This document shows, in pieces, positions 2,477 to 40,825 of a DNA stretch of 64,000 nucleotides (its first letter is position 1; each line of letters starts with the position of its first letter). The position numbers were made by a program, and so were the translations under genes. The stretch covers positions 186,001-250,000 of the forward strand of contig CAJTFG010000001.1 in assembly GCA_910575705.1 (NCBI GenBank), read 5' to 3'. This DNA comes from Erysipelotrichales bacterium. GTDB lineage: Bacteria; Bacillota_I; Bacilli_A; Erysipelotrichales; Erysipelotrichaceae. The notes beneath the pieces are model-generated. The model made no database searches, was not told the DNA's origin, and worked only from the letters and a program-made list of their open reading frames with translations.

Positions 2477-2769
2477 GCAGGAGCTGTTTAAGAAAAGCGA
2501 GTTGATAAAGATGTTTTTCTCTTCCACTTAGCACATTATCCCCCGAAACTCGCATTTTTTCATGACTATAAAAATAAAGAGCTTTCCCACAAAACAAGTT
2601 AATTGTTTCACAGCCCTACATATCTATCCCAAAGTCAAGGGTCATGCAACAACTTTAATACTATGATAGTATCTAAACATATAAATGACTATACATTAAC
2701 TTTTAATATCATTTATTAATACTAATGCAAAAAACGCCCTATCTAAAGGCGTTTTTTCATTTCATCTAC
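2477..2769. other. non-coding stretch between the DeoR gene and the island
   Basis: No gene is visible. A GCGAGTT (2497-2503) / AACTCGC (2547-2553) pair followed by T6 could be a weak terminator for the DeoR gene, though its loop of over 40 bases makes this doubtful. The only strong element is the hairpin at 2729-2757, listed separately. Confidence 0.5.
2729..2757. terminator. strong bidirectional terminator, probably the original guaA terminator
   Basis: AAAAAACGCC and GGCGTTTTTT form a perfect 10-base stem with a 9-base loop. It lies just outside the left copy of the guaA-end direct repeat (2770-2783). Deleting the island would put it about 12 bases beyond the guaA stop codon, so it is best read as the native guaA terminator displaced 8.3 kb by the insertion. 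Confidence 0.85.
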
Positions 2770-2783
2770 TATTCGAACTCAAT
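2770..2783. repeat. left attachment-site repeat (copy of guaA 3' end)
   Basis: TATTCGAACTCAAT is identical over 14 bases to 11050-11063, which spans the last codons and stop of guaA. The bases on either side differ between the copies. A direct repeat of a conserved gene end at both borders of a compositionally foreign block is the signature of tyrosine-recombinase integration. Confidence 0.8.
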
Positions 2784-2880
2784 TTTGTGTACTTTTAAAT
2801 CCATGCAACATATACATTATATGGTTATTTATACAATTATTTCCTGTATTATTTTACATTCCAAATCATTTATGTATATT

Positions 2881-2922
2881 ATGTACTCATTTTGGAGTCA
2901 CTATGAGTACATATTGAGTACA
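2881..2922. repeat. possible recombinase arm-site cluster, left end of island
   Basis: The octamer TGTACTCA occurs at 2882-2889 and, inverted, at 2904-2911 and 2915-2922. It recurs at the right end (10983-10990, plus a one-mismatch copy at 10972-10979). Bases 2881-2901 match 10971-10991 at 18 of 21 positions in the same orientation. The rest of 2784-3187 is AT-rich and holds no gene I can support. Confidence 0.5.
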
Positions 2923-3187
2923 TGCTATTCCTAAACACTTAAGATTTTGCTTCACTCAATCGCTAGAATTTGATTCATCAATTGTTTTATTATTTCTAAA
3001 TTTGTAGAAAACTCAATATGACTCGCATATTTATATTAAAATTCTGTTTTATCAATCAAATACAAATTTTAACCATTTTATAAACATATATTAAATAAGC
3101 AGTAAATTGAAATGCTATATTGTGATATAACATCTTATATTTACTGCTTTTGCATCATCAATTTGTAATTTTTCTTGTTTAAAGTTC

Positions 3188-4576
3188 TTATTTAATTACT
3201 TTTAAAGCTTTATCATGAGCTAGTAAGAATGGTCTTAAATAAGCAACTGTAGAGCACATAGGCATCACATCTTCAGATAGATTAATACCTAAAACATTAA
3301 TTAAGTAATTTCTTCTTTCAATCATTCTGTTATACATATCTGGATATTCTTTTTTGATTTGATTACGTAAAGATCCATTTGCTAAAAGAATTGTACTTTC
3401 AGCAGAAGAACCTGTATAACCAGAAACAGATGGAATAATGTCGATTTGTAATAACATTCCAGATTGTAATACTTCAGTTGAGTTTTCATAAATAGGAGAA
3501 GACATCCATTCTTCTTCAGCCGTTAAATGACCTGGACATAATGACCAACCATATTTTTCTCGTGGTAATTCACTTTCAATTAAATCAAATATTTCATGAC
3601 CTTGTAATCCACATTTAATGTTTTCAAGCCATGCAACATAGGCGTTGAAGTATGGAATTGCTACTCTTTCTAAATAATCTTTTTGACCTTCAGGAAGTTG
3701 TGTTTCATTTTCAACTGCAAGTCCACATCTTGAACTTGAGCCACCACGGTAACCAACAGTTAAAGAAATAGGATCTCCTAATTTGACTGTATTATCACGT
3801 GGAAACATATTTGCCTTAATAAATCTAGGACCACTGGAAGCAATAGTAACAATAGAAGTATGTTGACCATTTCTAACAAGTTTGTCGCCCAGTTTTAATT
3901 CATTTGTTCCAAGATTTAAGCTATTCATGGCATCTAAAATACAGTCACTTGCTAGTGCTGCACCATATTCATAATAAGCTATTTCGTTTGGATTATTTGT
4001 GCATCTAGCGCCATCTTCACCAATAAATATAGAACATTCATTACTTAATAATGCTTCATCCCCAATAATATCAATAATATTTTTAACAATATAATATGGA
4101 GCATCATATGTGTGTTTGTTATCTTCTAAAATAGAAGTGAAGTTTTTCCATCCAACTAAACCAATTCTTTGTCCTTTATCTAAGCCGGCAGAAATAAGTA
4201 AATCTTTAAATGCTACATCTGTACGATTTGGTTGATTAGGAAGTGAAAACAAAGACACATGAGTAGTTTTTGTGATTTGTACTCTAGATTTACTTGCTTT
4301 ACCTAAATTTTCATTTCCTAAAACAATATTGATTTCACCAGTTTTATCTATAATTAATAACGCTTCCTCAAAACGAGTGAAAAATCCAACTAAATATTCA
4401 AAGTTAGAACCATGCTCTACATCACCATAAATAACTAATTTATCAAGATTGAGTTTATTCATTCTTGTAAGTATTTTTTGCTTTCTTTCTTCAATTGTTT
4501 CATCTGTTAAGAATATAGGACTGCCACTGCAATCTTTTTTTGGCTCAGCAACTGTTGTTAAAACGATATTTCTCAT
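3188..4576 (-). CDS. M24-fold (Xaa-Pro peptidase/creatinase-like) protein with degenerate metal site
   Basis: 462 residues with a creatinase-type N-terminal domain (about 30-165) and a C-terminal pita-bread domain (about 185-420). True M24 metallopeptidases carry a D, D, H, E, E metal set. Here the first Asp region reads PISLTVGYRGGSSSRCG with neither Asp in place, the His segment (CPGHLTAEEEW) is kept, the first Glu is Asp (LLQIDIIP), and the second Glu survives (SSAESTILL). It may therefore be a non-metal hydrolase or a binding protein rather than an aminopeptidase. AGGAGG precedes ATG 4576. It is the last gene of the leftward island run, 130 bases after the HAD gene and separated from it by an inverted repeat. 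Confidence 0.7.
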   Translation of the reverse strand: MRNIVLTTVAEPKKDCSGSPIFLTDETIEERKQKILTRMNKLNLDKLVIYGDVEHGSNFEYLVGFFTRFEEALLIIDKTGEINIVLGNENLGKASKSRVQITKTTHVSLFSLPNQPNRTDVAFKDLLISAGLDKGQRIGLVGWKNFTSILEDNKHTYDAPYYIVKNIIDIIGDEALLSNECSIFIGEDGARCTNNPNEIAYYEYGAALASDCILDAMNSLNLGTNELKLGDKLVRNGQHTSIVTIASSGPRFIKANMFPRDNTVKLGDPISLTVGYRGGSSSRCGLAVENETQLPEGQKDYLERVAIPYFNAYVAWLENIKCGLQGHEIFDLIESELPREKYGWSLCPGHLTAEEEWMSSPIYENSTEVLQSGMLLQIDIIPSVSGYTGSSAESTILLANGSLRNQIKKEYPDMYNRMIERRNYLINVLGINLSEDVMPMCSTVAYLRPFLLAHDKALKVIK

Positions 4577-4643
4577 TTTTCCTCCTCATAAATACACAAA
4601 ATTTGATAAACTTTTTAAATTGTCAGCAATTATTGATTACAAA

Positions 4644-4701
4644 TATAACTGACCATGCAACTTATGTTTATTTGCTAATTCATATTTGATGGTCAGTTAT
4701 A
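4644..4701. promoter_or_regulatory. 13-bp perfect inverted repeat (hairpin or operator)
   Basis: TATAACTGACCAT at 4644-4656 and ATGGTCAGTTATA at 4689-4701 are perfect complements with a 32-base loop. It starts six bases after the HAD stop codon and ends about 70 bases before the M24-like start. It could end the PTS operon transcript or serve as an operator for the M24-like gene. There is no clear U-run on the leftward strand, so a simple terminator is not certain. Confidence 0.55.
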
Positions 4702-4706
4702 ATTTT

Positions 4707-5357
4707 TTATTCGATTATTTTTATCGCATTTTTATAATCAGAAATGATATTATCTGCTTTTTCGCAAGGTAGCATTTTATTTTTATTTATTGCTACTACT
4801 TTATAAACTCCAGCATTCTTTGCTGCAATAATCCCTGATATAGAATCTTCGAATACTATACATTCATCTTTTTTTAAATTAAGATTTTGAATACATTTCT
4901 CATAAATTTCGGGTGAAGGTTTTCCTTTGAAACTATAATCATTATAAATAATACTATTCCAATCAAACCATTTATATAATTTTAATTTTTCATAATGAAA
5001 TCTTATATTATCTAGTCCAGATGCTGTTGCTATAGCACATACATAATTTTTCTTTTTTAAATCATCTAAAAATTCTGGCAACCCGTCAACCAACTTATAA
5101 TTTTCTGTATCTGTTTCGCAAAAATCTCTATATATTTTTTCTTTCTCTAGCTTTAATGTATTGATATTTTCTACATCATCACCTAAAAAATAATGTATGC
5201 TCTCTTCTATATTTCTGCCATGAATGTATTTGGAAAATTCTTCATCAGTTGGTTTTCTATGTATTAAATTTTTTAAAAACAATGTCCAAGATTTTTCTAT
5301 AATTTCTTGGTCGAAAATCATAGTACCATTAAAATCAAATATAATTGCTTTTATCAT
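4707..5357 (-). CDS. HAD-superfamily hydrolase, beta-phosphoglucomutase/phosphatase-like
   Basis: 216 residues from ATG 5357; an in-frame TTG at 5408 would add 17 residues and overlap the preceding gene. Motif I reads FDFNGT, keeping the nucleophilic Asp but with Asn where the general acid/base Asp of beta-phosphoglucomutase stands. Motif II is IATAS, motif III the Lys in KGKPSPEIY, and motif IV FEDSISGI. The family dephosphorylates or isomerises phosphosugars, which fits a place behind a sugar PTS. The Asn substitution argues against simple mutase assignment. Substrate unknown. Confidence 0.8.
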   Translation of the reverse strand: MIKAIIFDFNGTMIFDQEIIEKSWTLFLKNLIHRKPTDEEFSKYIHGRNIEESIHYFLGDDVENINTLKLEKEKIYRDFCETDTENYKLVDGLPEFLDDLKKKNYVCAIATASGLDNIRFHYEKLKLYKWFDWNSIIYNDYSFKGKPSPEIYEKCIQNLNLKKDECIVFEDSISGIIAAKNAGVYKVVAINKNKMLPCEKADNIISDYKNAIKIIE

Positions 5358-5397
5358 AAAATCTTTTACATTTAAATCAAGCACAGCATTATAAATT

Positions 5398-6099
5398 CTA
5401 TCTATCAAATTTCAAATAGTATTTATATGCTAAACGAATCACTTCTGCCTCTTTGCCAAATCGAGGAATTCCATGGCCAGCCAATGCAAGATCTGGTTCT
5501 TCTTTTAATTTATATAATTTTTCAAAAGATTCGCCTAATTTTTTAGAGCTATAAGACAAATCTCCTTTCCATCCAGTTCTTGTTTCTTCTCCCCATTTTC
5601 CATCTGTATAAAACATGTCTCCACTAAACATAACATTTTCATTATCAATTCGAACAAAATATAATAATGTTCCATCTGTATGTCCTGGTAAGCATAATAT
5701 TTCAAATTCTAAATCACCAATCTTTAATGTTTCATCTTTATCAATCAGAATATCAGCTTTACAAGCTGGCATAATATGATTTGTACAAGGACTATATTCT
5801 CCTAAATGGCCATCTTCCAACATTTTGGAATCTGCTTTTCCTATTACAATTTTTGCACCACATTTCTGAAAATAATGAGCACATCCAGTATGATCGTCGT
5901 GTGCATGAGTTATTAAGACATGTGTAATTTTGTTCTCATCAATATTCCAATATTTTAAATTTTTAACAATTACATCTAATGCTTCTGGGCTTCCTGTATC
6001 AACTAACACATAACCATCTGAATGTTTAATAGCGTATGCATTGCCTAAATAACCCCATGGTCCCCCAGAAATCCAATAAATTCTGTCAGTTATTTTCAT
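5398..6099 (-). CDS. metallo-beta-lactamase-fold hydrolase
   Basis: 233 residues. It has the classic metal motif THAHDDH (about residue 62), the later PGHT (about 140) and SGD (about 160) ligands, and a C-terminal AGHGIPRFG segment. The family hydrolyses thioesters, lactones and phosphoesters. It lies eight bases after the PTS EIIBC stop and just ahead of the HAD gene, so the three are probably cotranscribed. No signal peptide, hence cytosolic. A lactonase or thioesterase acting on the PTS-imported compound is a guess from context only. Confidence 0.85.
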   Translation of the reverse strand: MKITDRIYWISGGPWGYLGNAYAIKHSDGYVLVDTGSPEALDVIVKNLKYWNIDENKITHVLITHAHDDHTGCAHYFQKCGAKIVIGKADSKMLEDGHLGEYSPCTNHIMPACKADILIDKDETLKIGDLEFEILCLPGHTDGTLLYFVRIDNENVMFSGDMFYTDGKWGEETRTGWKGDLSYSSKKLGESFEKLYKLKEEPDLALAGHGIPRFGKEAEVIRLAYKYYLKFDR

Positions 6100-6107
6100 A
6101 TATTCAC

Positions 6108-7511
6108 CTATTTACCTAAATCTCTCTTATCATCAAACCCAAAGAACCAAGTTAATACAAATGTAACAGTAAATACTAATAATATTCCAATTATAGCAAG
6201 CATAAAGTTGTTTCCACCTGCTGGATCTAAGAATTGAGGTAAACTTAAAAGAGAAACATTAATCATTTGGAATACTTTTACTTTAAAGATTCCAAAGAAT
6301 AATCCACCTACAGCACATCCAATAAAAGAAGGAATGATTGGTTTTTTGTATTTTAATGTTAAGCCATATGCACAAGGTTCAGAAATACCTGCGGTCGCAA
6401 TAGAAAATGCGGCAGAACCTGCGATTTGTTTTAATTCTTTATCTTTTGTTTTTAGCATAATTGCTGTTGATACAGCCAACTGTGAAAAGTTCCATGCAGT
6501 AAATCCAAGCCATAAGAATGGATCAAATCCTAAATTTGTCATATTTGATAATGCTACTGGCATAAAAACCCAATGGCTTCCTGTCCAAATAAATAAAGGC
6601 ATCAAGAAACAAATAGCAAATATACCTACTACTGCATATTTGTTGTAAATTACCAACATTGCATTCGCGATTATTTCTCCAACAATTGATCCAAATGGCC
6701 CTGTTACAACCAATGTTAGTGGAGCCATAATTAGAAATGTTGGGAATAAGGATAGCATTCCTAGTTTAGTAAAAAATGTCTTACTTACTAATTTTTCAAG
6801 TTTTGATTGAACCCAAACTGTAAACAATACAGGTAATAATGAAGCATTATAAGAAATAGCATGAACAGGTAACCCAAACAAACTAATACTTTCTCCACTA
6901 TTTACTAAATCTATGAAATTCGGATGAAGCAAAATACCAGCTAACATTAAACTTAATACCGTATTACACTTAAAATATTTTGAAGCACTATAAGCAACTA
7001 ATACAGGCATAAAATAGAAGAAAGAATCACCCATTAAATTTAATAAAATATAAGTTTGACTATCTGCACTTACAATATTTGCCAAAGTCAAAATGGTTAA
7101 TATTGCTTTAAATAATCCAGCAACTACCATCCCCATTAAAATTGGACTGACAGTTTGTGAAATTGCATTTAAAATTTGACCACCATAATATTTAATTCCT
7201 TTAGGTGTTTTTTCTTTTTTTGTTTCTACTGGTTCTTCTAATTTGGAAACATCTATACTTGTTCCTTCCAAACATTTTTCTACAGCTTTATAAACTTCAT
7301 CTATTTCATTTCCTACAACAACTTGAATCTGACCCATTGTTTTCATAACTCGAACTACGCAAGGTATTTTTTCTAGCATTTCCACATTTACTTTCGAGTT
7401 ATCTTTCACTTTAAATCTCAGTCTAGTAAAACAATGCTTAACTTCTTCAATATTTTTACTGTCACCTAAATATGTAATAATATCTTCTGCATTTTTAGAA
7501 TAATTTGACAT
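6108..7511 (-). CDS. PTS EIIBC component, glucose/beta-glucoside superfamily
   Basis: 467 residues. The N-terminal EIIB domain (about 1-85) has the phosphorylated Cys in HCFTRLRFKVKD. It is followed by a linker and a hydrophobic EIIC domain (about 105-460) opening with GGQILNAISQTVSPILMGMV and about ten membrane segments. EIIC carries the sugar across the membrane while EIIB phosphorylates it. EIIA is encoded separately at 8605-9081. GGGAG precedes ATG 7511. Expression depends on antitermination at 7708-7777. The association with LicT points to an aryl- or beta-glucoside-like substrate, but specificity cannot be read from sequence. Confidence 0.9.
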   Translation of the reverse strand: MSNYSKNAEDIITYLGDSKNIEEVKHCFTRLRFKVKDNSKVNVEMLEKIPCVVRVMKTMGQIQVVVGNEIDEVYKAVEKCLEGTSIDVSKLEEPVETKKEKTPKGIKYYGGQILNAISQTVSPILMGMVVAGLFKAILTILTLANIVSADSQTYILLNLMGDSFFYFMPVLVAYSASKYFKCNTVLSLMLAGILLHPNFIDLVNSGESISLFGLPVHAISYNASLLPVLFTVWVQSKLEKLVSKTFFTKLGMLSLFPTFLIMAPLTLVVTGPFGSIVGEIIANAMLVIYNKYAVVGIFAICFLMPLFIWTGSHWVFMPVALSNMTNLGFDPFLWLGFTAWNFSQLAVSTAIMLKTKDKELKQIAGSAAFSIATAGISEPCAYGLTLKYKKPIIPSFIGCAVGGLFFGIFKVKVFQMINVSLLSLPQFLDPAGGNNFMLAIIGILLVFTVTFVLTWFFGFDDKRDLGK

Positions 7512-7707
7512 TTATTTTTCTCCCTTCACAATTTAAAAATTCATTAATGTCGTATACTTTACAATTTTCAATTAATATGTGCTTTTAGCTAAAGTATTAA
7601 ATTTGATTCATAAAATAAGTTATCAACAATATCTTTTTTCTGGTATCAACCTCCTATAAATATGTGTTAAATGCCATTAAAAGGCGCCTATTTTAATTTC
7701 ATTTAAC

Positions 7708-7777
7708 AAAAAAACCTAAAACATAATCAAAAACAATTTGATTTGTGTTCTAGGTTAAGCCCTACTGGTAACAATCC
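7708..7777 (-). promoter_or_regulatory. RAT antiterminator overlapping a terminator, ahead of EIIBC
   Basis: On the minus strand 7777-7753 begins GGATTGTTACCAGTAGGGCT, a match to the ribonucleic antiterminator bound by BglG/LicT proteins. It overlaps the licT stop codon. Its 3' part also begins a long imperfect stem (AACCTA...TAGGTT) ending in T7 at 7714-7708, the competing terminator. The remaining bases up to EIIBC (7512-7707) contain no gene. Confidence 0.85.
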
Positions 7778-8598
7778 TCTCGTGAACATAATCGATTTAT
7801 ATGTATAATCAAGTATAGTTTTTCTTCAATTGACAATTCCCATTTGAAAAGTTGCAATAAATACTCAGATATTGAATCTACGCAATCTGAAGTATCTGGA
7901 AATGATTTTTTCATTGTTATATACAACTCTTTATTTTCACTTTTTATTTCCTCTTTACTTTCAATGCGTCTTAATAAGTATTGAATATGTGAAACAAATC
8001 TTGAATAATTCGCTCCATCTTTGTTAATACTTATATTGAATTTATTTTCTATCAGTTTTGTAATTTTATTAATAATCACTTTATTTTCTGCATAGCCATC
8101 TACTTCACCTGCTTTTCTAGCTTCTGCATTTATAATATGTAAACTAATAAAACTAGCCTCTTCTAACGGTAATTTTATATTTAGTTTTTTTTCTATCAAA
8201 AATAACGCATATCTACCTATAGCATATTCCTTTTCATACAAGAATTTTATATCTTGAACAATAGGAAGGGTTATATTTAATTTTTCTTTGCACCTTACTA
8301 TAGCAAAATTGATATGATCAGCTAATGTAAAGATAATATTAGGACTAAAGATATAATCCAGTTCATATTCTGCGTATTTTATAATTTCTTCAGAAAGTAA
8401 CAAAATTTCTTCAGGAATTTCATTTATCATATGAACATAATTTTCATCAATACCATAATATGTCTTTTGAATAACGGCTACATCAATTTCGAAAGGCGGC
8501 TTTTTAAACCCTATTCCTTTCCCGAAAGCAACCAATTCATTATTATCATCATCAAGGCATATAGCTACGTTATTATTAATGCATTTGACAACTTTCAT
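7762..8598 (-). CDS. licT: BglG/LicT-family transcriptional antiterminator
   Basis: 278 residues. The CAT RNA-binding domain (1-57, MKVVKCINNNVAICLDD and FGKGIGFKK) is followed by two PTS regulation domains (about 65-170 and 175-275) with conserved His residues such as LADHINFAI and SLHIINAEAR. Unphosphorylated sensor/HPr state controls dimerisation and binding to RAT RNA, which prevents termination. RAT elements stand both upstream of the EIIA gene and at the end of this gene, so the protein should control its own operon. It starts six bases after the EIIA stop. Confidence 0.9.
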   Translation of the reverse strand: MKVVKCINNNVAICLDDDNNELVAFGKGIGFKKPPFEIDVAVIQKTYYGIDENYVHMINEIPEEILLLSEEIIKYAEYELDYIFSPNIIFTLADHINFAIVRCKEKLNITLPIVQDIKFLYEKEYAIGRYALFLIEKKLNIKLPLEEASFISLHIINAEARKAGEVDGYAENKVIINKITKLIENKFNISINKDGANYSRFVSHIQYLLRRIESKEEIKSENKELYITMKKSFPDTSDCVDSISEYLLQLFKWELSIEEKLYLIIHINRLCSREDCYQ

Positions 8599-8604
8599 CT
8601 TTTA

Positions 8605-9081
8605 TCACCTATTTATCATCATTACAACATCTTTTATAGTTACTTCCTCTTTATTTGTAAATTCTATATTCAATCCTTTAGTTGTCACAACAACAGGTGT
8701 TATCAAATCGGTATGATGTGTTTCAAAAAAATCTCTATCAATTTTTAATAATGGCTGCCCTATTGTTACTTTATCATTTTGATTAACTAACAATTCAAAT
8801 CCATTACCATTAAACTCAGCAGTTTCTAATCCAACATGTATCAAGATTTCAATACCATCTTCTGTTTCTATACCTAATGCGTGCTTCGTACTTGCCACTG
8901 CAACAATTTTACCTTTACACGGAGAATATATAGTATTTCCATTGTATTTGAATGCAACTCCTTCTCCCATAATTTTATCGGCAAACATTTGATCATTTAC
9001 ATCTTTTAAATCTACACACTTCCCATTAACTGGAGAATATATTTGAAATTTTTTTTTCACTTTGAATATATTTTTTAACAT
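8605..9081 (-). CDS. PTS EIIA component, glucose/beta-glucoside type
   Basis: 158 residues, a free-standing Crr-like domain: FQIYSPVNGKCVDLKDV near the start, GEGVAF, and the phosphorylation site IEILIHVGLET with its active His. It passes phosphate from HPr to EIIB at 6108-7511. It is the first gene of the island PTS operon, with AAGGAGTTG upstream of ATG 9081. EIIA and EIIBC as separate polypeptides with licT between them is an unusual order compared with the fused bgl permease. Confidence 0.9.
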   Translation of the reverse strand: MLKNIFKVKKKFQIYSPVNGKCVDLKDVNDQMFADKIMGEGVAFKYNGNTIYSPCKGKIVAVASTKHALGIETEDGIEILIHVGLETAEFNGNGFELLVNQNDKVTIGQPLLKIDRDFFETHHTDLITPVVVTTKGLNIEFTNKEEVTIKDVVMMINR

Positions 9082-9103
9082 ACCATCAACTCCTTATATA
9101 TAC

Positions 9104-9177
9104 AAAAAACTCTTCGAAGCTTCACAAACATGCAATCTAAAAACACATGTAGGTAAAGCCTCAAAGAGTAACAATCC
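9104..9177 (-). promoter_or_regulatory. RAT antiterminator and terminator in the leader of the island PTS operon
   Basis: Minus-strand 9177-9152 begins GGATTGTTACTCTTTGAGGC, a near-perfect LicT RAT. CTCTTTGAGGCTTTAC (9168-9153) can pair along 16 bases, using G-U pairs, with GTGAAGCTTCGAAGAG (9125-9110). T6 follows directly. The transcript therefore terminates before the EIIA gene unless the antiterminator binds. Confidence 0.9.
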
Positions 9178-9190
9178 TATATTCGCTTAC

Positions 9191-9219
9191 ATTATAATCC
9201 TGATAATAAATAATGTCAA
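9191..9219 (-). promoter_or_regulatory. consensus sigma-A promoter of the island PTS operon
   Basis: Perfect TTGACA (9219-9214) and perfect TATAAT (9196-9191) with 17-base spacing. Transcription would start about six bases before the RAT, leaving virtually no untranslated RNA ahead of the switch. Regulation thus lies in antitermination rather than initiation. Confidence 0.9.
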
Positions 9220-9456
9220 TCCCGTCTTTAGAATATTTCTATAGTATAAAAATCGGGTGCCGACTTTTATATTCGCTACTTTTACTCTTTATATAAAGGC
9301 AAGATTGAATACGCAAGCTGGAAATGTTTTGTGGTTTAATTATTTATAAAACCCCTATATATAAAGCATTTTCACGAGGTTCAAAGCAGATATAGTTCCT
9401 TTAGCACCCGTTTTTTAGACTATAGAGTTAGAATATAGCACCATGAATTTTTAGGG
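9220..9456. other. non-coding gap between PTS promoter and AbiEii
   Basis: AT-rich, with no gene visible. A short TCGG-GTG-CCGA hairpin flanked by A and T runs near 9250-9267 may terminate transcripts leaving the AbiE pair, but the stem is only four to five bases. Confidence 0.35.
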
Positions 9457-10293
9457 TTAAGTAAGAAAAAAAACTTGATTGCTTTCGAAACTTTTCATAA
9501 TTTTTGCAAAGAAAAGAAGCAGCCTATATTTACGACAATAATTCTTCCATAAATTCTGCAATGTTGAATCTTCACTTATTGAGCATAATATTTCTTCATA
9601 TTGCTCTAATACAGAAAGTGTCTCTCTTTTTCTACATGTTTTATCAAATGCCAATGATAAATCATTATAGTTTATTGAATCGTTATAACGATCAAATAAA
9701 GTCGTTACATCATAAAAATCACGCATACGTGTATTCAACAATCCTCTAGAAAGAATTGTTTGAATTTTTTCTGCAAGTATTGTCTCTAAATCATATGACC
9801 AAAGTTGTATTGATTTGTCTTCTAACAACAACGAATAATCATATCTTACTTCTCTAGGCGTAATCACATCACCTGTCGATATATCTATTTTGATTGGCAC
9901 TATTAAATTTTCTAATTTTACATCCATATGGATTCTTATTCCAGGATACTCCATGTTATCCATGATATCAGATACATCACTTAAGATAAATTCAATGTGA
10001 TCATCAAGAGAAATATCTTTAATTTCATTTATAATTCTCGTAGTTTCTTCTTTTGTTAAATCAAAATTACGTATTGTTGTATCAATATCCATAGTCGATC
10101 GCATCGATATACCAATCATAGAAGTAACCAAGATTCCACCCTTAACAATGAAATCGTCTTTATATTTAGAATACGTTATTCTTTCAAGAAAACGTTCCAT
10201 CATATAAATACGTAACAAAGTTATAGAATCCGATCCATTTTGTTTCGCAACATTTTTAATTCTACCTTTTATTTGTGCCGGAGTTAGATACAT
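9457..10293 (-). CDS. AbiEii/AbiGii-type toxin (nucleotidyltransferase)
   Basis: 278 residues. The nucleotidyltransferase signature appears as FIVKGGILVTSMIG followed by RSTMDIDTTI (about 47-72), i.e. GG then R-x-T-x-D-x-D. AbiEii toxins are nucleotidyltransferases that stop growth or abort phage infection, and are countered by AbiEi (type IV toxin-antitoxin). The start codon overlaps the antitoxin stop (TAATG), so translation is coupled. Located inside the guaA island, where it would both defend against phage and stabilise the island. Confidence 0.85.
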   Translation of the reverse strand: MYLTPAQIKGRIKNVAKQNGSDSITLLRIYMMERFLERITYSKYKDDFIVKGGILVTSMIGISMRSTMDIDTTIRNFDLTKEETTRIINEIKDISLDDHIEFILSDVSDIMDNMEYPGIRIHMDVKLENLIVPIKIDISTGDVITPREVRYDYSLLLEDKSIQLWSYDLETILAEKIQTILSRGLLNTRMRDFYDVTTLFDRYNDSINYNDLSLAFDKTCRKRETLSVLEQYEEILCSISEDSTLQNLWKNYCRKYRLLLFFAKIMKSFESNQVFFLT

Positions 10294-17346: not shown

Positions 17347-17356
17347 ACTCCCATAA

Positions 17357-17455
17357 GCAGAGTAGAAATATGAGCGTTAAGTATCGTGAGAACGGGGAGT
17401 TGTCTCGCGGGCGAAAAGAGAAATCTTGCGGTTCATATTTTGCATCCCGCTGTGC
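17357..17455 (+). promoter_or_regulatory. tetrahydrofolate (THF-I, folT-type) riboswitch
   Basis: The order of conserved blocks matches the THF-I aptamer: AGAGTAGA (17360-17367), GAGCGTTAAGT (17372-17382), GGGAGTTGTC (17395-17404), CGAAAAGAGA (17412-17421), GCGGTTCAT (17428-17436) and TTGCATCCCGCT (17440-17451). The ends GCAGAG and CTGTGC can close P1. It directly precedes a FolT-like folate transporter gene. Ligand-bound RNA should reduce folate uptake. Confidence 0.85.
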
Positions 17456-18477: not shown

Positions 18478-18556
18478 TCATAAAACCGCTATCCATACAT
18501 TTTGGTTTATGATATGATCATAAACAAAGGCAGTATCACATCGTTTGATACACACA

Positions 18557-18864
18557 GCACGATTTCTGTCGGACATAACATCAAGGTACAGCCCTCCGGC
18601 GGAGGAAGATGGTATTCAAAAGACATCACTTTTTCTGTAAAATCATGGCCCATCACAGGAGAACAAAGAGCGGTATTATCTTCCGTACGTCCTCCAGATC
18701 CCTCTGGAGATGAAAGCCGTCATTATGCCGCTACCATATATCAGCCCGGCTATATAGATGGCAGACCTGCCAATTTTGCCAGTTGGGCACAGCGTCCGGC
18801 TCTGTATAAATTGGATAACTATGATGGGTATCATGGTTCAAATAGCATGCAGAGGAAAAAGTAG
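18557..18864 (+). repeat. dispersed variable cassette A (start-less coding segment)
   Basis: Begins with GCACGATTTCTG (18557-18568) and ends with CAGCGTCCGGCTCTG (18790-18804). Between them the frame is fully open (from ACG 18559) and encodes TISVGHNIK..., rich in Ser, Trp, Tyr, Pro and Gly, to WAQRPALY, with a tail to the stop at 18864. Lacks a convincing start: an ATG at 18502 is in frame but has no ribosome-binding site. Shares only its ends with cassettes B-F. Best seen as a silent donor segment of a variable surface protein; the identity of that protein is unknown. Confidence 0.7.
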
Positions 18865-18961
18865 AAAAAAGAGGATTGGGGTTCCGTTGTAAGGTGGGAT
18901 TCGGTTAAAATGGTGAGGAGAAGGTAAAAGAAAAATGAGGCTAGGAGTTCCATTGTAAGGC
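18865..18961 (+). repeat. tandem cassette leaders between cassettes A and B
   Basis: Two copies of a leader lie here: GATTGGGGTTCCGTTGTAAGG at about 18877 (no cassette follows; it runs into unrelated sequence) and CTAGGAGTTCCATTGTAAGG ending at 18960, which runs straight into cassette B. The same leader precedes cassettes C and E. The first copy looks like the scar of a lost cassette. Confidence 0.55.
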
Positions 18962-19245
18962 GCACGATTTCTGCCTATCATAAAGTAAATACGATCATAT
19001 CCATAGATTGTCCGCAGCAATCGTCGTGTGATGGTTCACAGGATGTATTTTTGCGATACACATCATTCCAGGTAAGACCGTATTTCAATGCATGGCAGTC
19101 CAGTATTAGCCAAACTAAACCTTATCAGTTTCGTGCCGGCGGTTATGTTACTCTTTATCAAAACAGTAATTTTATCAGTGACCGCAATGATGACCAACAT
19201 CAGCGTCCGGCTTTGTATACATTCCATAGTAGGTATAATAAATAA
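18962..19245 (+). repeat. dispersed variable cassette B
   Basis: GCACGATTTCTG at 18962-18973 and CAGCGTCCGGCTTTG at 19201-19215. The frame from ACG 18964 is open through TISAYHKVNT..., then a Gln/Tyr/Asn-rich stretch, to HQRPALY and the stop at 19243-19245. There is no plausible start codon or ribosome-binding site. The core is 254 bases, close to cassette A (248), yet the internal residues are unrelated to it. Confidence 0.75.
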
Positions 19246-19272
19246 TTATAGTAAGCATTATAATTTCATATT

Positions 19273-20496
19273 TTATACAGAGGATAATATTTCTTGAAGA
19301 TACTTTCGCACAGAAGAAATAAAATATAAGCTGCCGGTGATCAATATCGTCCCTTTTTTTCTCATCGCAAGATCGATCGCTTTTTTATAATCTCTCTCTA
19401 CCGCAATCGGATAAGATCGTGCCAACACTTCACAGGCGGATTCCCGATAACATGCAAAATCACAAACAGTGACATCCCGGCTGAGCTTCAACAGCCTTTC
19501 CAGCATCGCATTATGATCCTTATCTTTCAAAACAGCAAAGATAATATGAATATCTTCATAAGATGCCATCGAAGCACACAGCGCTTCCACACCTTCTACA
19601 TTATGAGCTCCATCAACGATGATCAGCGGATCCACGCACATCGTTTCAAACCTGCCCTTCCAGCGGGCTTTTTTTAATCCGGCCATAAGCTGATCGCGAT
19701 CAACCGATACATGCGGCGATAATACAGATAACGCTTCTAAAACACACGTAATATTATTGATCTGATAATACGGCGTATGCTCCAGCGATATGGAATGATC
19801 GCCATACGTAAACGATATGCCGTCAAGAACAACTGTTCCCTCTATCTGCTTAGTTACAATGAGCGGACTTTTCTTTTCTTTGCAGATCTTTTGAAACACA
19901 TCTAGACAAGAAGGCTTATGTTCCGCCGTGATCAAAGGAATGCCATCCTTTACGATACCTGCTTTTTCATAAGCGATCTGTTCATGCGTATCACCTAATA
20001 ATTCCATATGATCCATACCTATATTCGTAATGATAGAAACCAGCGGCAATAAAACGTTCGTCGCATCCTTTCTGCCCCCTAAGCCAGCCTCATAGATCGC
20101 CACATCGACTGCATACGCATAAAAATAAAGTGCCGCAATCACAAAATCGATTTCAAACATGTTCAACTCATGCGCGATCCATTCCTCATAATGCGCATTG
20201 ACCGTATCCAGAAAAAACTCTTCGGGAATATTTTGCGCATTGATGCAGATACGATCAAAATGCGTTTCCAGATATGGTGAAGAAAACGTTCCTATCTTGT
20301 ATCCCGCCTCTTGTAACACACAACGCAAATAGTTTAATGTACTCCCTTTTCCGTTTGTTCCGGCAATATGAATACAAGAAATTTTTCTATGTGGATCGCC
20401 GAGCGTCTTCATATACGCCGCAAAAGCTTCTGTCCCCTTTGTGATAAAACGCCGTTCCTCCATCCACTTTACAGCATCTTCCGCACTTACAAACAT
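19273..20496 (-). CDS. folC: folylpolyglutamate synthase/dihydrofolate synthase family
   Basis: 408 residues, a Mur-ligase-type ATP-dependent ligase. The P-loop GTNGKGST is near residue 45, followed by TNIGMDHMELLGDT and the C-terminal GAHNVEG motif. It adds glutamates to folates, trapping them in the cell, which complements the folate importer at 17507. ATG 20496 is chosen for GGAGGAG directly upstream; it overlaps the ung stop by 10 bases, so translation is probably coupled. Confidence 0.92.
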   Translation of the reverse strand: MFVSAEDAVKWMEERRFITKGTEAFAAYMKTLGDPHRKISCIHIAGTNGKGSTLNYLRCVLQEAGYKIGTFSSPYLETHFDRICINAQNIPEEFFLDTVNAHYEEWIAHELNMFEIDFVIAALYFYAYAVDVAIYEAGLGGRKDATNVLLPLVSIITNIGMDHMELLGDTHEQIAYEKAGIVKDGIPLITAEHKPSCLDVFQKICKEKKSPLIVTKQIEGTVVLDGISFTYGDHSISLEHTPYYQINNITCVLEALSVLSPHVSVDRDQLMAGLKKARWKGRFETMCVDPLIIVDGAHNVEGVEALCASMASYEDIHIIFAVLKDKDHNAMLERLLKLSRDVTVCDFACYRESACEVLARSYPIAVERDYKKAIDLAMRKKGTILITGSLYFISSVRKYLQEILSSV

Positions 20497-25372: not shown

Positions 25373-25630
25373 ATTGGAGTTCCATCATAATGAGGCACGA
25401 TTTCTGTTTTTCACGGCATTCATGTGATTGCCAAAACACACCACGACGGTAGCATTGATAAAAACTTTCTATGGAATGACTCCTCCATGGTAAATGTTTG
25501 CAATAGCACACCATATTCTAATAACCATTGGACCTATGCTATTGGCTATCCAGGAAGTGCATCTCTTGCTACAGTCTATGAGAATTATTATTATCAGCGT
25601 CCGGCTCAATGTCAAGAACTTAAGAAATAG
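25373..25630 (+). repeat. dispersed variable cassette C with leader
   Basis: Leader GATTGGAGTTCCATCATAATG (from 25373), then GCACGATTTCTG (25395-25406), then a frame open from ACG 25397 encoding TISVFHGIHVIAK... to YYYQRPAQ, with CAGCGTCCGGCTCAA at 25595-25609 and the stop at 25628-25630. The core is 215 bases. Stops lie directly upstream in frame, and no start codon is served by a ribosome-binding site. It marks the left edge of the lower-GC nucleoside module. Confidence 0.75.
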
Positions 25631-25764
25631 AGGGTAAGAATCCTCTATCATAAGAAGACAATGAGGATATTTCTTCCTATTTTTGGGCGCAGAAAAAACA
25701 ACTTCCTTTTTACACTCTCCTATCGCAAATTTCATTATATTGCCGAAAATATTAGGCATAAAGA

Positions 25765-31321: not shown

Positions 31322-32072
31322 AAAAACAATTACCTATACTGTGATATCCTTGACTGTTTTTGTACTAGTATGGCAGTTGTATATTTCTATATTTGATGTT
31401 CCAGCATTCATTTTACCTTCTCCTGTTACGGTAGGAAAAGAAATGATCAATCAAATAACCCAAGTATCCTTTTATAAAAATATGTTATATACATTAAGTG
31501 AAGTATTGCTTGGTTTCGCCTTATCCATAGTATTTGGATTACTAATTGGCTATTTCATTGGAAAACATCCACATATTAAACGACTTAGCATGCCACTTCT
31601 TGTATTCTTCCAGGTATCTCCAAAAATTGCACTAATTCCGATTTTCATCATTTGGTTTGGTTTAGGATATGGATCTAAATTATTCGTTGTCTTCATTATG
31701 TCCTTCTTCCCTATTATTGAAAGTATACTTCTTGGTTTAGGGAATATTTCAAAAGAAATGTATGAATATATGAAGATATTAAAAGCAAATCGTATACAAA
31801 TTTTAACACAGTTAGAAGCTCCATGCTGTATTCCTTATATACTATCATCATTTAAAGTTGGAATCATACAGGCAATTATCGGTGCAACCGTTGCAGAATG
31901 GATGGCTGGACAATTAGGGATTGGCTATCTCCAGTCATTTGCTAGCTCCACATTTAACAGTCCATTGCTGATCACAGGAATTGCCTTCACAATTCTACTT
32001 GGAATTTTACTGTATGGTGGCGTTACCCTTCTGGAACATCATTTCCAACGTTATCAGGAGGTAAAACAATGA
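31308..32072 (+). CDS. ABC transporter permease 1, NitT/TauT family
   Basis: 254 residues with six membrane segments. The N-terminal hydrophobic region and FILPSPVTVGKEM are typical of SsuC/TauC-type permeases. The EAA loop, which docks on the ATPase, is around LEAPCCIPYILSSFKVGIIQ and is followed by GATVAEWMAGQLGIGYL. It overlaps the ATPase gene by 14 bases and the next gene by four. Confidence 0.9.
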   Translation: MNNLKKTITYTVISLTVFVLVWQLYISIFDVPAFILPSPVTVGKEMINQITQVSFYKNMLYTLSEVLLGFALSIVFGLLIGYFIGKHPHIKRLSMPLLVFFQVSPKIALIPIFIIWFGLGYGSKLFVVFIMSFFPIIESILLGLGNISKEMYEYMKILKANRIQILTQLEAPCCIPYILSSFKVGIIQAIIGATVAEWMAGQLGIGYLQSFASSTFNSPLLITGIAFTILLGILLYGGVTLLEHHFQRYQEVKQ

Positions 32073-33076
32073 AAAAAATATACCTTGCATTGCTTTCCAT
32101 TTTTTTGTTGAGTGCTTGCAGCAGTTCTACTTTGGAACTTCAAAAAAATGGAGAAGGTCTTACAGAAGTAGATATTCAAATTGATGGTGCAGCAACTCCA
32201 TATTATGCTCCTCTTTATCTTGCTCAAGAAAAAGGATATTTTAAGGAAGCTGGACTACATGTTAATTTTTATTATGCATCTGCCGCAGAAATCGTTAAAA
32301 ACGTTGGTGCTAACAATGTAATGTTTGGATTTCCAAATGCAGATACTGTCTTATTGGGACGAGGAAACGGTGTTCCAGTAAACATTATTCATACAACCTA
32401 TCAACACGGATTAGGCGCCATCATTTATAAAAACAGTTCTAATATTCGAACAATTCAAGATTTAAAAGGAAAAACAATTGCTATCACTAGTTATGGTAGT
32501 CCAAATTATATTCAACTAAAGGTTATCTTACAACAGAACGGTATGAGTATTGAGGATGTGAACGTAAAAGTAATTGGTACTGGTGCTATTGTTAATGCCC
32601 TTGTATCCGATCAAGTGGATGCTATTTGCTTCTCAAAATTACGTACATATGAGCTCCGTTCTAGTAATATTGATGTGGAGCAGTTCTTAAGTAATGATTA
32701 TATGCCATCTTATGGTAATGTTGTTATTACATCCGAAACATTCTTAAAAGAACATCCGGAAATATGTAAAGCTTTTACCTCCGCTTTAAATCGTGGAATG
32801 CAGGATATTGTTGATGGAAATGTAGAAGAAGCTGTTAACATTGCTAGAGATCACTACACACCAAACATTGCAGGAAGTGAACAAAAATATATTAATATTA
32901 TTTCACAGGAATTTATTGGTAACTTATGGATTTCTGAAGATACAAAGAAATATGATTTTGGTTACAGCAATATACATGATTACCAAAATTATATTGATCT
33001 TCTACAAAAAAATGGATTATTCCAAAATGTATTTCCTGCAGAAGATCTAGTTGTTAATCTAGGAGATCAATCATGA
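32069..33076 (+). CDS. substrate-binding lipoprotein, NMT1/THI5-like
   Basis: 335 residues. The signal peptide ends in LLSAC, so Cys17 should be lipidated and the protein anchored outside the membrane. The mature domain has the NMT1-like pattern: DGAATPYYAPLYLAQEKGYF, then LHVNFYYASAAEIVKNV and DLKGKTIAITSYGSPN. Family members bind thiamine precursors, pyrimidines, riboflavin-like or sulfonate ligands. With a PucR regulator and nucleoside genes beside it, a nucleobase or pyrimidine-like ligand is the best guess. It overlaps both flanking permease genes by four bases. Confidence 0.88.
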   Translation: MKKIYLALLSIFLLSACSSSTLELQKNGEGLTEVDIQIDGAATPYYAPLYLAQEKGYFKEAGLHVNFYYASAAEIVKNVGANNVMFGFPNADTVLLGRGNGVPVNIIHTTYQHGLGAIIYKNSSNIRTIQDLKGKTIAITSYGSPNYIQLKVILQQNGMSIEDVNVKVIGTGAIVNALVSDQVDAICFSKLRTYELRSSNIDVEQFLSNDYMPSYGNVVITSETFLKEHPEICKAFTSALNRGMQDIVDGNVEEAVNIARDHYTPNIAGSEQKYINIISQEFIGNLWISEDTKKYDFGYSNIHDYQNYIDLLQKNGLFQNVFPAEDLVVNLGDQS

Positions 33077-33861: not shown

Positions 33862-33907
33862 AACTGTGTAAGTTAAGAGCGTACAGCTTAACTTATACAG
33901 TTTTTTA
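33862..33907 (+). terminator. terminator of the PucR-ABC operon
   Basis: AACTGTGTAAGTTAAG / CTTAACTTATACAGTT makes a 16-base stem with one mismatch, followed by T6. Confidence 0.9.
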
Positions 33908-34064
33908 ATAACCATGATAGATTTCATGATTTTATATAAGGTTCAGCGGTATTAATTTACAGTATTTACCAATAATTATTTGAATATTATCTGGTATGCT
34001 TTTCTTAATAGGTAGGTTAAAAAAGACAGAATCTTATACATAAGAGGAACCTTGTTTAAAGAAT

Positions 34065-34294
34065 TGGATGGAGGTTCACTCGCTTTGGAAGCACGATTTC
34101 TGTGAAAAACAACCGGGTTGCTACAATGCTCAGCACCTTATCCAAACGCTTATTGGTTATCTTCTTTCCAAACAGATCGTGTTAGCATTATCGTGATTAA
34201 TGATGGCTCTATGGATGGAGAAACATGGGATGATAATTATGCATACCAGCAAATTTTCCCCCAGCGTCCAGCTCTGCATCTCATGTTGTGGTAA
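34065..34294 (+). repeat. dispersed variable cassette D (frameshifted)
   Basis: Leader GGATGGAGGTTC, then GCACGATTTCTG (34091-34102), and CAGCGTCCAGCTCTG at 34262-34276 (one change from the other copies). The first frame (TISVKNNRVATML...) stops at 34155-34157. A +1 shift near 34110-34125 restores a frame that encodes CSAPYPNAYWLSSFQTDRV and ends in FPQRPALHLMLW and a stop at 34292-34294. The start and end blocks are 169 bases apart, not a multiple of three, so this copy cannot be expressed as it stands. It marks the right edge of the lower-GC nucleoside module. Confidence 0.75.
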
Positions 34295-34300
34295 AGCAAA

Positions 34301-34352
34301 AAAAACAGATGATTTCCAGAAAACTTTTCCGGATAAAACTATCATCTGTTTT
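34301..34352. terminator. terminator after cassette D
   Basis: AAACAGATGAT / ATCATCTGTTT stem with a roughly 25-base loop and T7 on the plus strand. The 34355-34560 stretch beyond it holds no gene I can support. Confidence 0.65.
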
Positions 34353-34560
34353 TTTATGATCATTTAATGAAATATAGCTGTAACCGCCTTTATAAAGGCT
34401 GCCATCCACACATCATACAAGATAGCCGGACAAATCGACTGATCAACACCAAGCGGGCATTTCCAAAGACGGTATATGGGAAAACAGATCCCAGAAGCTT
34501 TCATAAACATTCCTTTCTTTTATGGGAATATTCCCCTATATGCATAGTATATGACATAGT

Positions 34561-34588
34561 AAAGAGCGAAGCACTCTTCGCTCTTTAT
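34561..34588 (-). terminator. terminator of the esterase gene
   Basis: AAAGAGCGAAG-CACT-CTTCGCTCTTT perfect 11-base stem, overlapping the esterase stop codon. Confidence 0.8.
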
Positions 34589-35328
34589 AAAAACTGCAGA
34601 AAATAAGACAGCTGTTTCCTCCACCATGTAAAATCGTGAGTCACATCATATCCCCAATAGGTCACCCAACCATTGATCCCCTTTTCCTGAAATATCTGTT
34701 CTATGCGTTTATGCATATTCACAAAGTCGAGTTCTCCGCTGCCCTGACCACAGCACAGCGTGATATCCGATACATTATACTGTCCGATATATTCATGATT
34801 GGGATCTATTTGCGATAAATACGTCAGCGGGGAATTACAATATGTCAAATCATCATGATAATCCATGAAATAATCAGATGTCAGCATAGCGCTCATAGAG
34901 AGGACGAGATCAAACAGATCCGGTCTTCTTAACATGATATTGAGAGCCTGAAACCCACCGATACTGCAGCCGCATGTCATCAGTTTCTGTTTCTCACCTG
35001 TTTCCTGTTCATTCGTTTTTAAAATCTTCGGTGCTAATTCTTCTACGATGTAATGATACCAGCACTCATGTTTTTGCATACGCTCTGCCGGATCTCCGTC
35101 TTCATCCAGCCATGTTTCATGATAATTACTGTCGCAGCAAATAAACCGGATCTTACCCTCATCAATATATTTCTGTGCTTCCTCTATCATGCCGTTTTTT
35201 TCAAAATCATCAAAACGGCCTCCTTCTGCCGGAAAAACAAGACACGGCTTTCCGCTCTTACCATATACCTTATACTCCATATCGCGATTCAAATACGTAC
35301 TGTGAAACTTGTGATATTCTATGATCAT
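34585..35328 (-). CDS. alpha/beta-hydrolase, esterase D-like family
   Basis: 247 residues. The nucleophile elbow reads TCGCSIGGFQ (Ser about 118), an Asp is available in ITLCCGQGSGELDF, and the catalytic His is likely in YDVTHDFTWW near the end. No signal peptide. Members of this putative-esterase family hydrolyse short acyl esters and some act on carbohydrate or polyphosphate esters. Substrate unknown. ATG 35328 is chosen for GGGAG seven bases upstream over GTG 35334. It stands alone between cassettes D and E. Confidence 0.8.
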   Translation of the reverse strand: MIIEYHKFHSTYLNRDMEYKVYGKSGKPCLVFPAEGGRFDDFEKNGMIEEAQKYIDEGKIRFICCDSNYHETWLDEDGDPAERMQKHECWYHYIVEELAPKILKTNEQETGEKQKLMTCGCSIGGFQALNIMLRRPDLFDLVLSMSAMLTSDYFMDYHDDLTYCNSPLTYLSQIDPNHEYIGQYNVSDITLCCGQGSGELDFVNMHKRIEQIFQEKGINGWVTYWGYDVTHDFTWWRKQLSYFLQFL

Positions 35329-35498
35329 AAACACACTCCCTTTATAAAATTATCATATCCCTTTTCACAGTCATCGTCCAGTTTTCCAAGCGGTTACGCA
35401 ATGAAAACGCATATATTGTACAAAAAAAGACATGTTTTAACATCGACAAACAGCCTCTGCTTTTTACCGCATGCAAGATCCATACCTTGCATTCTCAT

Positions 35499-35780
35499 CT
35501 ACAGCAGAGCCGGACGCTGCGAACCCATAGTCTTTGCTTCACCATTTGGTTCCCCTATCGCATACATAAGATCGACACCACCTTTATCCCCATAGGAATA
35601 AGCAGCTTTCGGTGAATAAATATCCTTAGCGGGAATCGTCGTAGATGACCACATGCGGATATCACCAAATGTATACAAGGTTGCTAAAAAGTCATGCAAA
35701 GAACCGCATTGCTGCCATAGACTGTATACTCCAAAAGAAGCAGAAATCGTGCCCACCTTAGAATGGAACCCCAATCCAAT
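35499..35780 (-). repeat. dispersed variable cassette E with leader
   Basis: On the minus strand: leader GATTGGGGTTCCATTCTAAGG (35780-35760), GCACGATTTCTG (35752-35741), an open frame TISASFGVYSLWQQ..., through Ser/Tyr/Gly-rich sequence, to MGSQRPALL and the stop, with CAGCGTCCGGCTCTG at 35519-35505. The core is 248 bases. An in-frame ATG exists at 35792, but no ribosome-binding site is visible. It is intact in frame. It lies between the esterase gene and glgP, both on the same strand. Confidence 0.75.
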
Positions 35781-40458: not shown

Positions 40459-40544
40459 CGTGTTGTATTCAAAAAGAGCAAATGCATGCTCATGTAAAAA
40501 AGCCTCTGTATGTCATATGAACTATAATACCGATCATAGTTATC

Positions 40545-40825
40545 TCACATCAACAGAGCCGGACGCTGCGAAAACTGTTGTATACTTCGGCCATCCTCCC
40601 AAGTTTGTCCTGCTGCATTCCCTCCACGATATGTTATTGTGGTAGATGTAGAACTGCTTGGATAAAACTGTGGAAACGGAAAATGAGAAAGTCCATCTAT
40701 AAGATAACAAAAAGTTGTATCGACACTTGCTTCTGCACATATTCCAAGAATTCCGACAGTACATTTGGTACCCGTTTTTACAGATTACTTATGATACACA
40801 GAAATCGTGCTATAGCAGAACCTCC
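40545..40825 (-). repeat. dispersed variable cassette F (internal stop codon)
   Basis: On the minus strand: leader GATGGAGGTTCTGC, GCACGATTTCTG (40810-40799), TISVYHK then TAA at 40787-40785. The same frame then continues open for over 70 codons (SVKTGTKCTVGILGICAEAS ...) to FSQRPALLM and the stop at 40547-40545; CAGCGTCCGGCTCTG is at 40568-40554. The core is 257 bases and in phase, so only the early stop blocks it. It occupies the gap between glgB and the GNAT gene. Confidence 0.75.

Follow-up and report, generated by a model that had tools for sequence, protein, structure and literature searches.

Cassette D and its surroundings

Cassette D lies in a 64,000-nt stretch of DNA (the window, analysed at its full length), between an operon that ends at 33822, in which the gene at 32069-33073 is NMT1-like, and an opposite-strand ORF at 34585-35334. 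The features at the locus, in window coordinates, are the following.

33886..33941, + strand: weak hairpin-model match 5' of D (E 0.03), possibly the remnant of a lost neighbour unit
33992..34016, + strand: promoter-like element of D, an extended -10 TGGTATGCT, then AATAGGTAGG
34090..34276, + strand: cassette D, both borders kept, interior out of frame, 172 nt from the opening codon to the closing CAG
34090..34102, + strand: opening border of D, AGCACGATTTCTG, from the border pattern search
34128..34129, + strand: junction in D at which 47 nt are absent relative to two paralogues, from the alignment
34262..34276, + strand: closing border of D, CAGCGTCCAGCTCTG, one letter off the family CAGCGTCCGGCTCTG
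34299..34355, + strand: inverted repeat and T run 3' of D, terminator-like (T run and terminator look judged by eye)

The first-pass annotation had described D as a frameshifted cassette that keeps both constant borders, and the border coordinates and frame reading confirm this. It had placed the opening and closing blocks 169 nt apart, as against 172 nt here; the difference reflects the choice of block cut points, and both distances leave a remainder of 1 on division by three, so that the blocks are indeed out of phase. The early stop that it had noted in the first frame falls after 31 codons, and the second frame resumes a cassette end as it had read (...FPQRPALHLMLW), the fuller translation of this other frame being QIFPQRPALHLMLW.

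A whole-genome search with D identified two paralogues, C1:394859-395092 (+) and C1:632605-632372 (-), and in both of them extra sequence separates the two matching parts of D. The alignment contains a single 47-nt gap, with the remaining 187 positions approximately 80% identical. A simple base-call error at D is unlikely, since the frame is lost through this gap and not through a one-base slip. Moreover, the mismatches fall preferentially at third codon positions (18 of 37 against one paralogue, with 12 first and 7 second; 19 of 38 against the other, again with 12 first and 7 second), which suggests that D was a coding unit until recently. A covariance-model search of the window gave no hairpin-model match at D, where the inverted repeat at 34299..34355 takes the place that the family hairpin occupies in other units. 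Out of frame and lacking a hairpin-model match, D is probably a poor or dead donor, and we are confident in regarding it as a decayed member of a silent-cassette family.

Elsewhere in the window, positions 2001-10000 are low in GC (28-31%, against 33-47% in the other 2-kb bins) and hold PTS genes, a PRD antiterminator and an AbiEii-type toxin gene (9460-10293); this region was possibly acquired. A THF riboswitch lies at 17356-17454 (82.4 bits).

The cassette family across the genome

Cassettes were collected by border pairing in fetched stretches, allowing at most two mismatches. The 1.845 Mb genome contains 137 border-paired cassettes, 136 silent and one expressed, the status of the latter being read from its long frame. 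The silent cassettes are spread over 61 loci of 1 to 7 units each, with a median spacing of 413 nt. An earlier set of 138 included a chance pairing (C1:577432), later removed, and seven more chance pairings were removed by eye. The opening core GCACGATTTCTG occurs 84 times in the genome, compared with once for a reversed-pattern control, and the closing block CAGCGTCCNGCTYTG 124 times, compared with none (100 of these 124 places being among the matches listed); these controls rule out chance borders. Five other cassettes lie in the window.

18556..18804, + strand: silent cassette, in frame, no stop; hairpin 18799-18853
18961..19215, + strand: silent cassette, in frame, no stop; hairpin 19210-19281
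25394..25609, + strand: silent cassette, in frame, no stop, closing end CTCAA; weak hairpin 25604-25658 (E 0.011)
35505..35753, - strand: silent cassette, in frame, no stop; weaker hairpin 35456-35510 (E 0.003)
40554..40811, - strand: silent cassette, in frame, stop after 8 codons; hairpin 40505-40559

In total, 135 of the 137 cassettes are in frame, with lengths of 165-279 nt, and two of those 135 have a stop. Among the silent units, 132 of 136 are in frame and free of stops, two carry a stop, and two, D and C1:152332, are out of frame. The latter (minus strand, stretch L090) keeps its hairpin match at C1:152067-152124, unlike D.

A profile built from 65 cassettes, aligned out of 126 in-frame ones, gave 137 genome matches (best 150 of 158 candidates scored). 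This set differs from the border-paired one, as C1:420920 and C1:603860 are matches to the profile only. The mean protein column identity of the alignment is 23%, and only 53 cassette pairs align as DNA over at least 80% of the shorter member. In Pfam, none of the 65 aligned cassettes had a match below E 0.032, and the PDB chains gave none at all. Outside the genome, a 36% match in Cytophagales was rejected as an Asp-rich, EF-hand-like stretch of an unrelated protein (by eye), and a phage-borne source was set aside, with no exact pattern matches in viral_contigs. The family was found in one of 395 class genomes, its own, each genome being represented by no more than some 14 scored candidates.

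Selection on interiors and borders

Between ungapped paralogues of at least 80% identity, changes at codon positions 1, 2 and 3 number 140, 117 and 234; codons with a single change comprise 170 synonymous and 142 nonsynonymous cases, and, where a codon has changed at two or all three positions, 3 cases are synonymous and 79 nonsynonymous, all of these counts being non-independent because the pairs share members. The borders behave differently from the interiors at the codon level: the closing border has CCG and CGT each in 134 of 135 cassettes, against 22% and 29% in interiors, and the opening border has ACG in all 135 in-frame cassettes, against 15%, a fixation that is partly built in because the cassettes were collected by border patterns. 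Third-position bias together with fixed border codons indicates that the interior is maintained at the protein level and the borders at the level of DNA or RNA.

Mostly open frames with third-position bias would also be found if the units were some 135 independent small protein genes and not donors, and in 52 of the 136 silent units the open stretch ahead of the opening border does contain a possible start codon in frame (ATG, GTG or TTG; ATG in 36). However, the other 84 have no such start, this open stretch has fewer than 25 codons in 109 of 136, fixation extends to the synonymous sites of the border codons, and an exact copy of one unit lies inside a giant gene (see below). We consider independent small genes scarcely credible.

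A promoter-like element in many silent units and a hairpin in most

An extended -10-like pattern followed by AAAGGTAG is present in 54 of 137 upstream regions (those of the 136 silent units and of the chance pairing C1:577432), the 54 cases being partly related units and so not independent. The same pattern occurred 0-1 times in each of 20 shuffles and not at all on the reverse strand; in its strict form it is absent from 83 of the 137 regions. The silent units may thus be transcribed, as judged from this element and from the sense-strand bias of the hairpin described next. Degenerate tandem repeats of approximately 25-30 nt, GGATTCGTTTAAAGCGGTGAGG-like, were seen by eye between the promoter-like element and the opening border in one class of silent units, for example at L110:14562-14640 (-).

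Most closing blocks are followed by a hairpin, the outer stem of which begins inside the border (CTCTG). In an alignment of 135 of the 137 stretches (125 distinct; D and the chance pairing left out), 89.9% of the hairpin cells are paired, compared with 80.2% in shuffles (reached in 0 of 500) and 28-50% with slid partners, although this percentage is tilted in favour of the structure, because these very sequences served to define it. Two-sided changes affect 204 cells, against 53.8 in shuffles; pairs with two-sided change number 13, against 10.0, an only modest excess that 7 of 500 shuffles reach. On the structure named, most loops hold four letters. The inner stem contains 119 G.T and 29 A.C combinations, an asymmetry that favours a sense strand (RNA or single-stranded DNA) over a cruciform, whereas the outer stem, with 21 and 16, shows little strand asymmetry. 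The hairpin could alternatively assist recombination of DNA or have a part in transcription.

A covariance model of the hairpin gave at least 122 genome matches (best 150 of 1,691 candidates scored), of which 118 lie beside profile-matched cassettes and four beside degenerate or unmatched ones. On the same best 150 of 1,691 candidates, 19 of the 137 profile-matched cassettes, including the expression site and D, are without a match. Smaller searches gave weak matches for some cassettes unmatched in the genome-wide one, at window 25604 and 35456 and in L162 (E 0.007), L123 (E 0.05), L089 (E 0.18) and L102 (E 0.71). In the search of the window, all five cassettes other than D matched, and no match was obtained by covariance-model search at the expression locus or the reverse transcriptase (RT) locus. 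In a few units, at window 25394-25658, L160 ~2129-2184 (-) and L088 ~2506-2561 (-), the closing end is altered (CTCAA) or the hairpin is longer, and these variant units apparently carry matching 3'-arm changes (by eye).

The expression site and evidence for copying

The cassette at C3:196138-195908 (minus strand) is the sole profile match of 137 that lies in a long frame, one of 6,858 codons (C3:197107-176531) with approximately 310 codons from the first Met to the cassette; the open frames of the other matches span 62-254 aa. The encoded protein has a signal-peptide-like start and a hydrophobic, membrane-anchor-like end followed by lysines (by eye). Further along, MBG_2 and Big_3_2 score above their Pfam cut-offs and Big_13 and Big-like below theirs; no Pfam family was found for the N-terminal domain, which was detected in one of 60 genomes, its own. 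The frame reads like that of a giant Ig-rich surface protein. Just 5' of the giant gene, L174:182-1258 (-) is a 358-aa ORF resembling an ECF sigma factor with a membrane part (by eye), a possible regulator of that gene.

The expressed cassette, extended by 14 nt upstream and 2 nt downstream, is identical at 247 of 247 nt to silent cassette C1:633035. The flanks of the two differ, they lie on different contigs, and the silent copy is still in place. Furthermore, the cassette comparison yielded three silent pairs with identical interiors: in two of them the flanks diverge 0-1 nt outside both borders, and in the third the upstream side diverges at once and 59 nt are shared downstream. Identical interiors between different flanks argue that the segment moves between borders. 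The comparison strongly suggests that the cell varies the outer part of the protein by placing a copy of a silent segment between the borders, with no change to the donor; the direction, from silent to expressed, we infer from a single genome snapshot. We hold a silent repertoire with templated switching to be very likely. The first-pass annotation had taken kept borders with broken coding potential to suit a silent donor. At family level the donor half of that proposal stands, given one long-frame site among 137, an exact silent copy and two silent pairs with identical interiors, but the broken-coding half does not, with 132 of 136 silent units in frame and stop-free. It had also suggested looking for a repaired version of the D segment at an expression locus, where the genome search with D gave no match.

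The main rival to an RNA-based copying step is RecA-type gene conversion as at pilE and vlsE, in which DNA recombination through the short borders would do the copying and the RT and Avd described below would be unrelated leftovers. Exact donor-recipient identity and an unchanged donor are in its favour. Against it, border homology is only ~12-26 nt upstream and 15-17 nt downstream, lengths that are short for RecA. It also leaves the covarying hairpin, the inner-stem sense bias and the promoter-like element unexplained. It has known precedents, as in vls, where the silent arrays lack a promoter (PMC11499132).

Sixty-one dispersed loci, precise boundaries and a folded 3' end could also be produced by a transposon- or integron-like cassette moved by a site-specific recombinase that acts at the hairpin. 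In two of the three identical silent pairs, however, the hairpin stays with the site and not with the segment, and a hairpin match is absent at the expression site, which makes such an element highly improbable.

At 18 of the 136 silent sites, 14-49 nt of expression-site coding sequence lie 5' of the cassette at 90% identity or more (25-49 nt at six of them), and downstream sharing with the expression site is at most 4 nt at all 136. An edge that is constant on the 3' side but variable on the 5' side is in keeping with reverse transcription; the same polarity is also expected if downstream changes are selected against, both kinds of site needing their own 3' sequence. The upstream sharing suggests that silent sites have at some time received sequence from the expression site, something not expected under a one-way donor model. 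It would fit a reverse flow in which cDNA of the expressed gene is archived in silent sites with 3' hairpins and recombination returns the segments, as would the four-letter loops of most hairpins: in BPP-1 a target site requires, 3' of its variable repeat, a stem whose sequence is free and a loop of 4 nt (PMC3240598). By analogy with BPP-1, in which a hairpin is also present at the recipient (PMC3240598), silent sites could be recipients. However, the inner-stem excess of G.T over A.C favours sense RNA over a two-strand cruciform, a promoter-like element is unexplained in an archive, and the return path requires a second mechanism. Reverse flow appears unlikely as the main account; it overlaps with our best explanation, faithful RNA-templated copying of cassettes, if both directions occur.

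An orphan DGR-type reverse transcriptase with Avd

The genome encodes a single RVT_1 match, on contig C2, with an Avd gene preceding it.

L172:1141-2379, - strand: DGR-type RT, 412 aa
L172:2392-2937, - strand: Avd, 181 aa

The best PDB match of the RT is 8ub7 (E 3.6e-43), which we take to be the BPP-1 RT; the next is at 1e-14, with group II RTs far behind. Its motif 4, GLAQGNLVSQ (an SQ motif), and its YMDD agree with an RT of the DGR clade. Avd scores 45.6 bits with bAvd (Pfam cut-off 40) and 1.8e-21 with the PHROG Avd; its NCBIfam score of 41 bits is below that cut-off of 80. No second copy of the 2.1 kb RT-avd segment was found in the genome (best other match E 0.04; best 40 of 50 candidates). 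RT and avd lie on C2 and the expression site on C3, the sole link between RT and cassettes being the shared genome.

Among 115 family genomes, two have the RT at E 1e-30, its own and another in which the identity is 31%; among 395 class genomes, three have it at E 1e-60. Avd occurs in 18 of 395 class genomes, its own being the only family member among these. RT and Avd thus also occur in class genomes in which no cassettes were found, a pattern for which ordinary DGRs there would account.

A template/variable pair in the neighbourhood of the RT was considered and rejected, as a comparison of 7 kb around the RT with the 50 fetched stretches revealed none. Adenine mutagenesis among paralogues was likewise rejected, with A in 265 of 535 substitutions and T in 296 (CT 181, AG 148, AT 61, AC 56, GT 54, CG 35). 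Between the expressed and the silent copy no adenine-specific changes were found, there being 0 changes over 247 nt. The absence of both features counts for RecA-type gene conversion, which we regard as a real possibility, if a doubtful one.

Residue I181 of bRT sets adenine infidelity. In the present RT motif 4 reads QGNLVSQ, and a V, I or L stands before that G in 76 of 80 readable relatives (86 examined), including I or L in the six first examined; the Q is found only in this RT among the relatives read. The five residues other than V, I or L are this Q, a T, and R, R and A, the last three resembling wrong-frame pattern matches. In this survey 6 of 87 loci were without the motif, and, of 159 relatives, the best 80 supplied the viral loci. 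Q151 of the HIV QGxxxSP motif affects fidelity, and motif 4 has been proposed to set DGR mutagenesis (PMC3521204). The Q here, the glutamine of QGxxxSP-type RTs, is consistent with faithful copying and is no proof of it.

Proposed mechanism

A silent unit consists of a promoter-like element (in many), a leader, the opening border, a segment of 165-279 nt (a protein frame in most), the closing border and a hairpin (in most). Such a unit would be transcribed from a start near AAAGGTAGG through the hairpin, which, standing 3' of the segment, would recruit or prime the orphan DGR-type RT and its Avd, in the role that the spacer downstream of the template has in BPP-1 (PMC12875486). The cDNA would then replace the resident segment at the expression site by way of the short borders. 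The RT would copy faithfully, and variety would come from the stored repertoire in place of adenine mutagenesis.

For an RNA step we count the covarying hairpin, the inner-stem G.T excess, the lack of a hairpin match at the expression and RT loci, and the promoter-like element; against it, the lack of an adenine signature and the ability of RecA-type conversion to explain the copying without an RT. The case for a step carried out by RT and Avd seems to us evenly balanced, and the full explanation, faithful RNA-templated cassette copying, we place at the same midpoint. That the retroelement serves as a faithful part library, from which any of ~136 cassettes could pass as cDNA into the outer domain of the giant protein, we put forward a little more tentatively.

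Comparison with known systems

The system works like silent-cassette variation and may use DGR parts. It is not classed as a DGR because a repeat pair at the RT and adenine-specific substitutions were both looked for and neither was found. A search of titles and abstract openings in the open-licence PMC literature found no report of a DGR RT working with silent cassettes. To our knowledge, known bacterial silent-cassette systems rely on DNA recombination and known DGRs on adenine mutagenesis. If the proposal is correct, a stored repertoire served by a retroelement enzyme would join both kinds, with a mutator RT turned copier, and would give a handle on cDNA entry into DGR targets, a process called incompletely understood in 2026 (PMC12875486).

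The likeness to the BPP-1 DGR lies in an RT with an SQ motif, in Avd and in target copying through short shared ends; in BPP-1 the template is followed on its 3' side by structured RNA, and the target by a hairpin (PMC12875486; PMC3240598). The system differs from BPP-1 in that neither a template/variable repeat by the RT nor adenine-specific changes were found, motif 4 has Q instead of V, I or L, and many possible templates are dispersed. It also resembles the SQ-motif RTs that lack obvious template/variable repeats, 'sloppy' DGRs among them (PMC3521204), in having a DGR-clade RT but no detectable adenine-mutated repeat pair. For those repeat-less RTs, short contigs, reduced adenine specificity or decay were suspected (PMC3521204); unlike them, this RT shares its genome with a large candidate template set.

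In the pilS/pilE scheme, silent partial copies with constant borders accompany an expression site, and the donor is kept. The present system shares with vls and pilS/pilE one expression site, many silent partial copies and short constant borders, together with a kept donor and a segment swapped into a surface protein, where the direction is one that we infer. It differs from both in that most interiors are too diverged for DNA alignment, and in the promoter-like element of many units and the covarying 3' hairpin of most. Should the RT play no part, a set of 136 dispersed donors serving a single gene in a genome of 1.85 Mb would still constitute a very large switching repertoire; vls has 13-24 silent cassettes in contiguous arrays (PMC11499132), whereas here 136 silent units are distributed over 61 loci.
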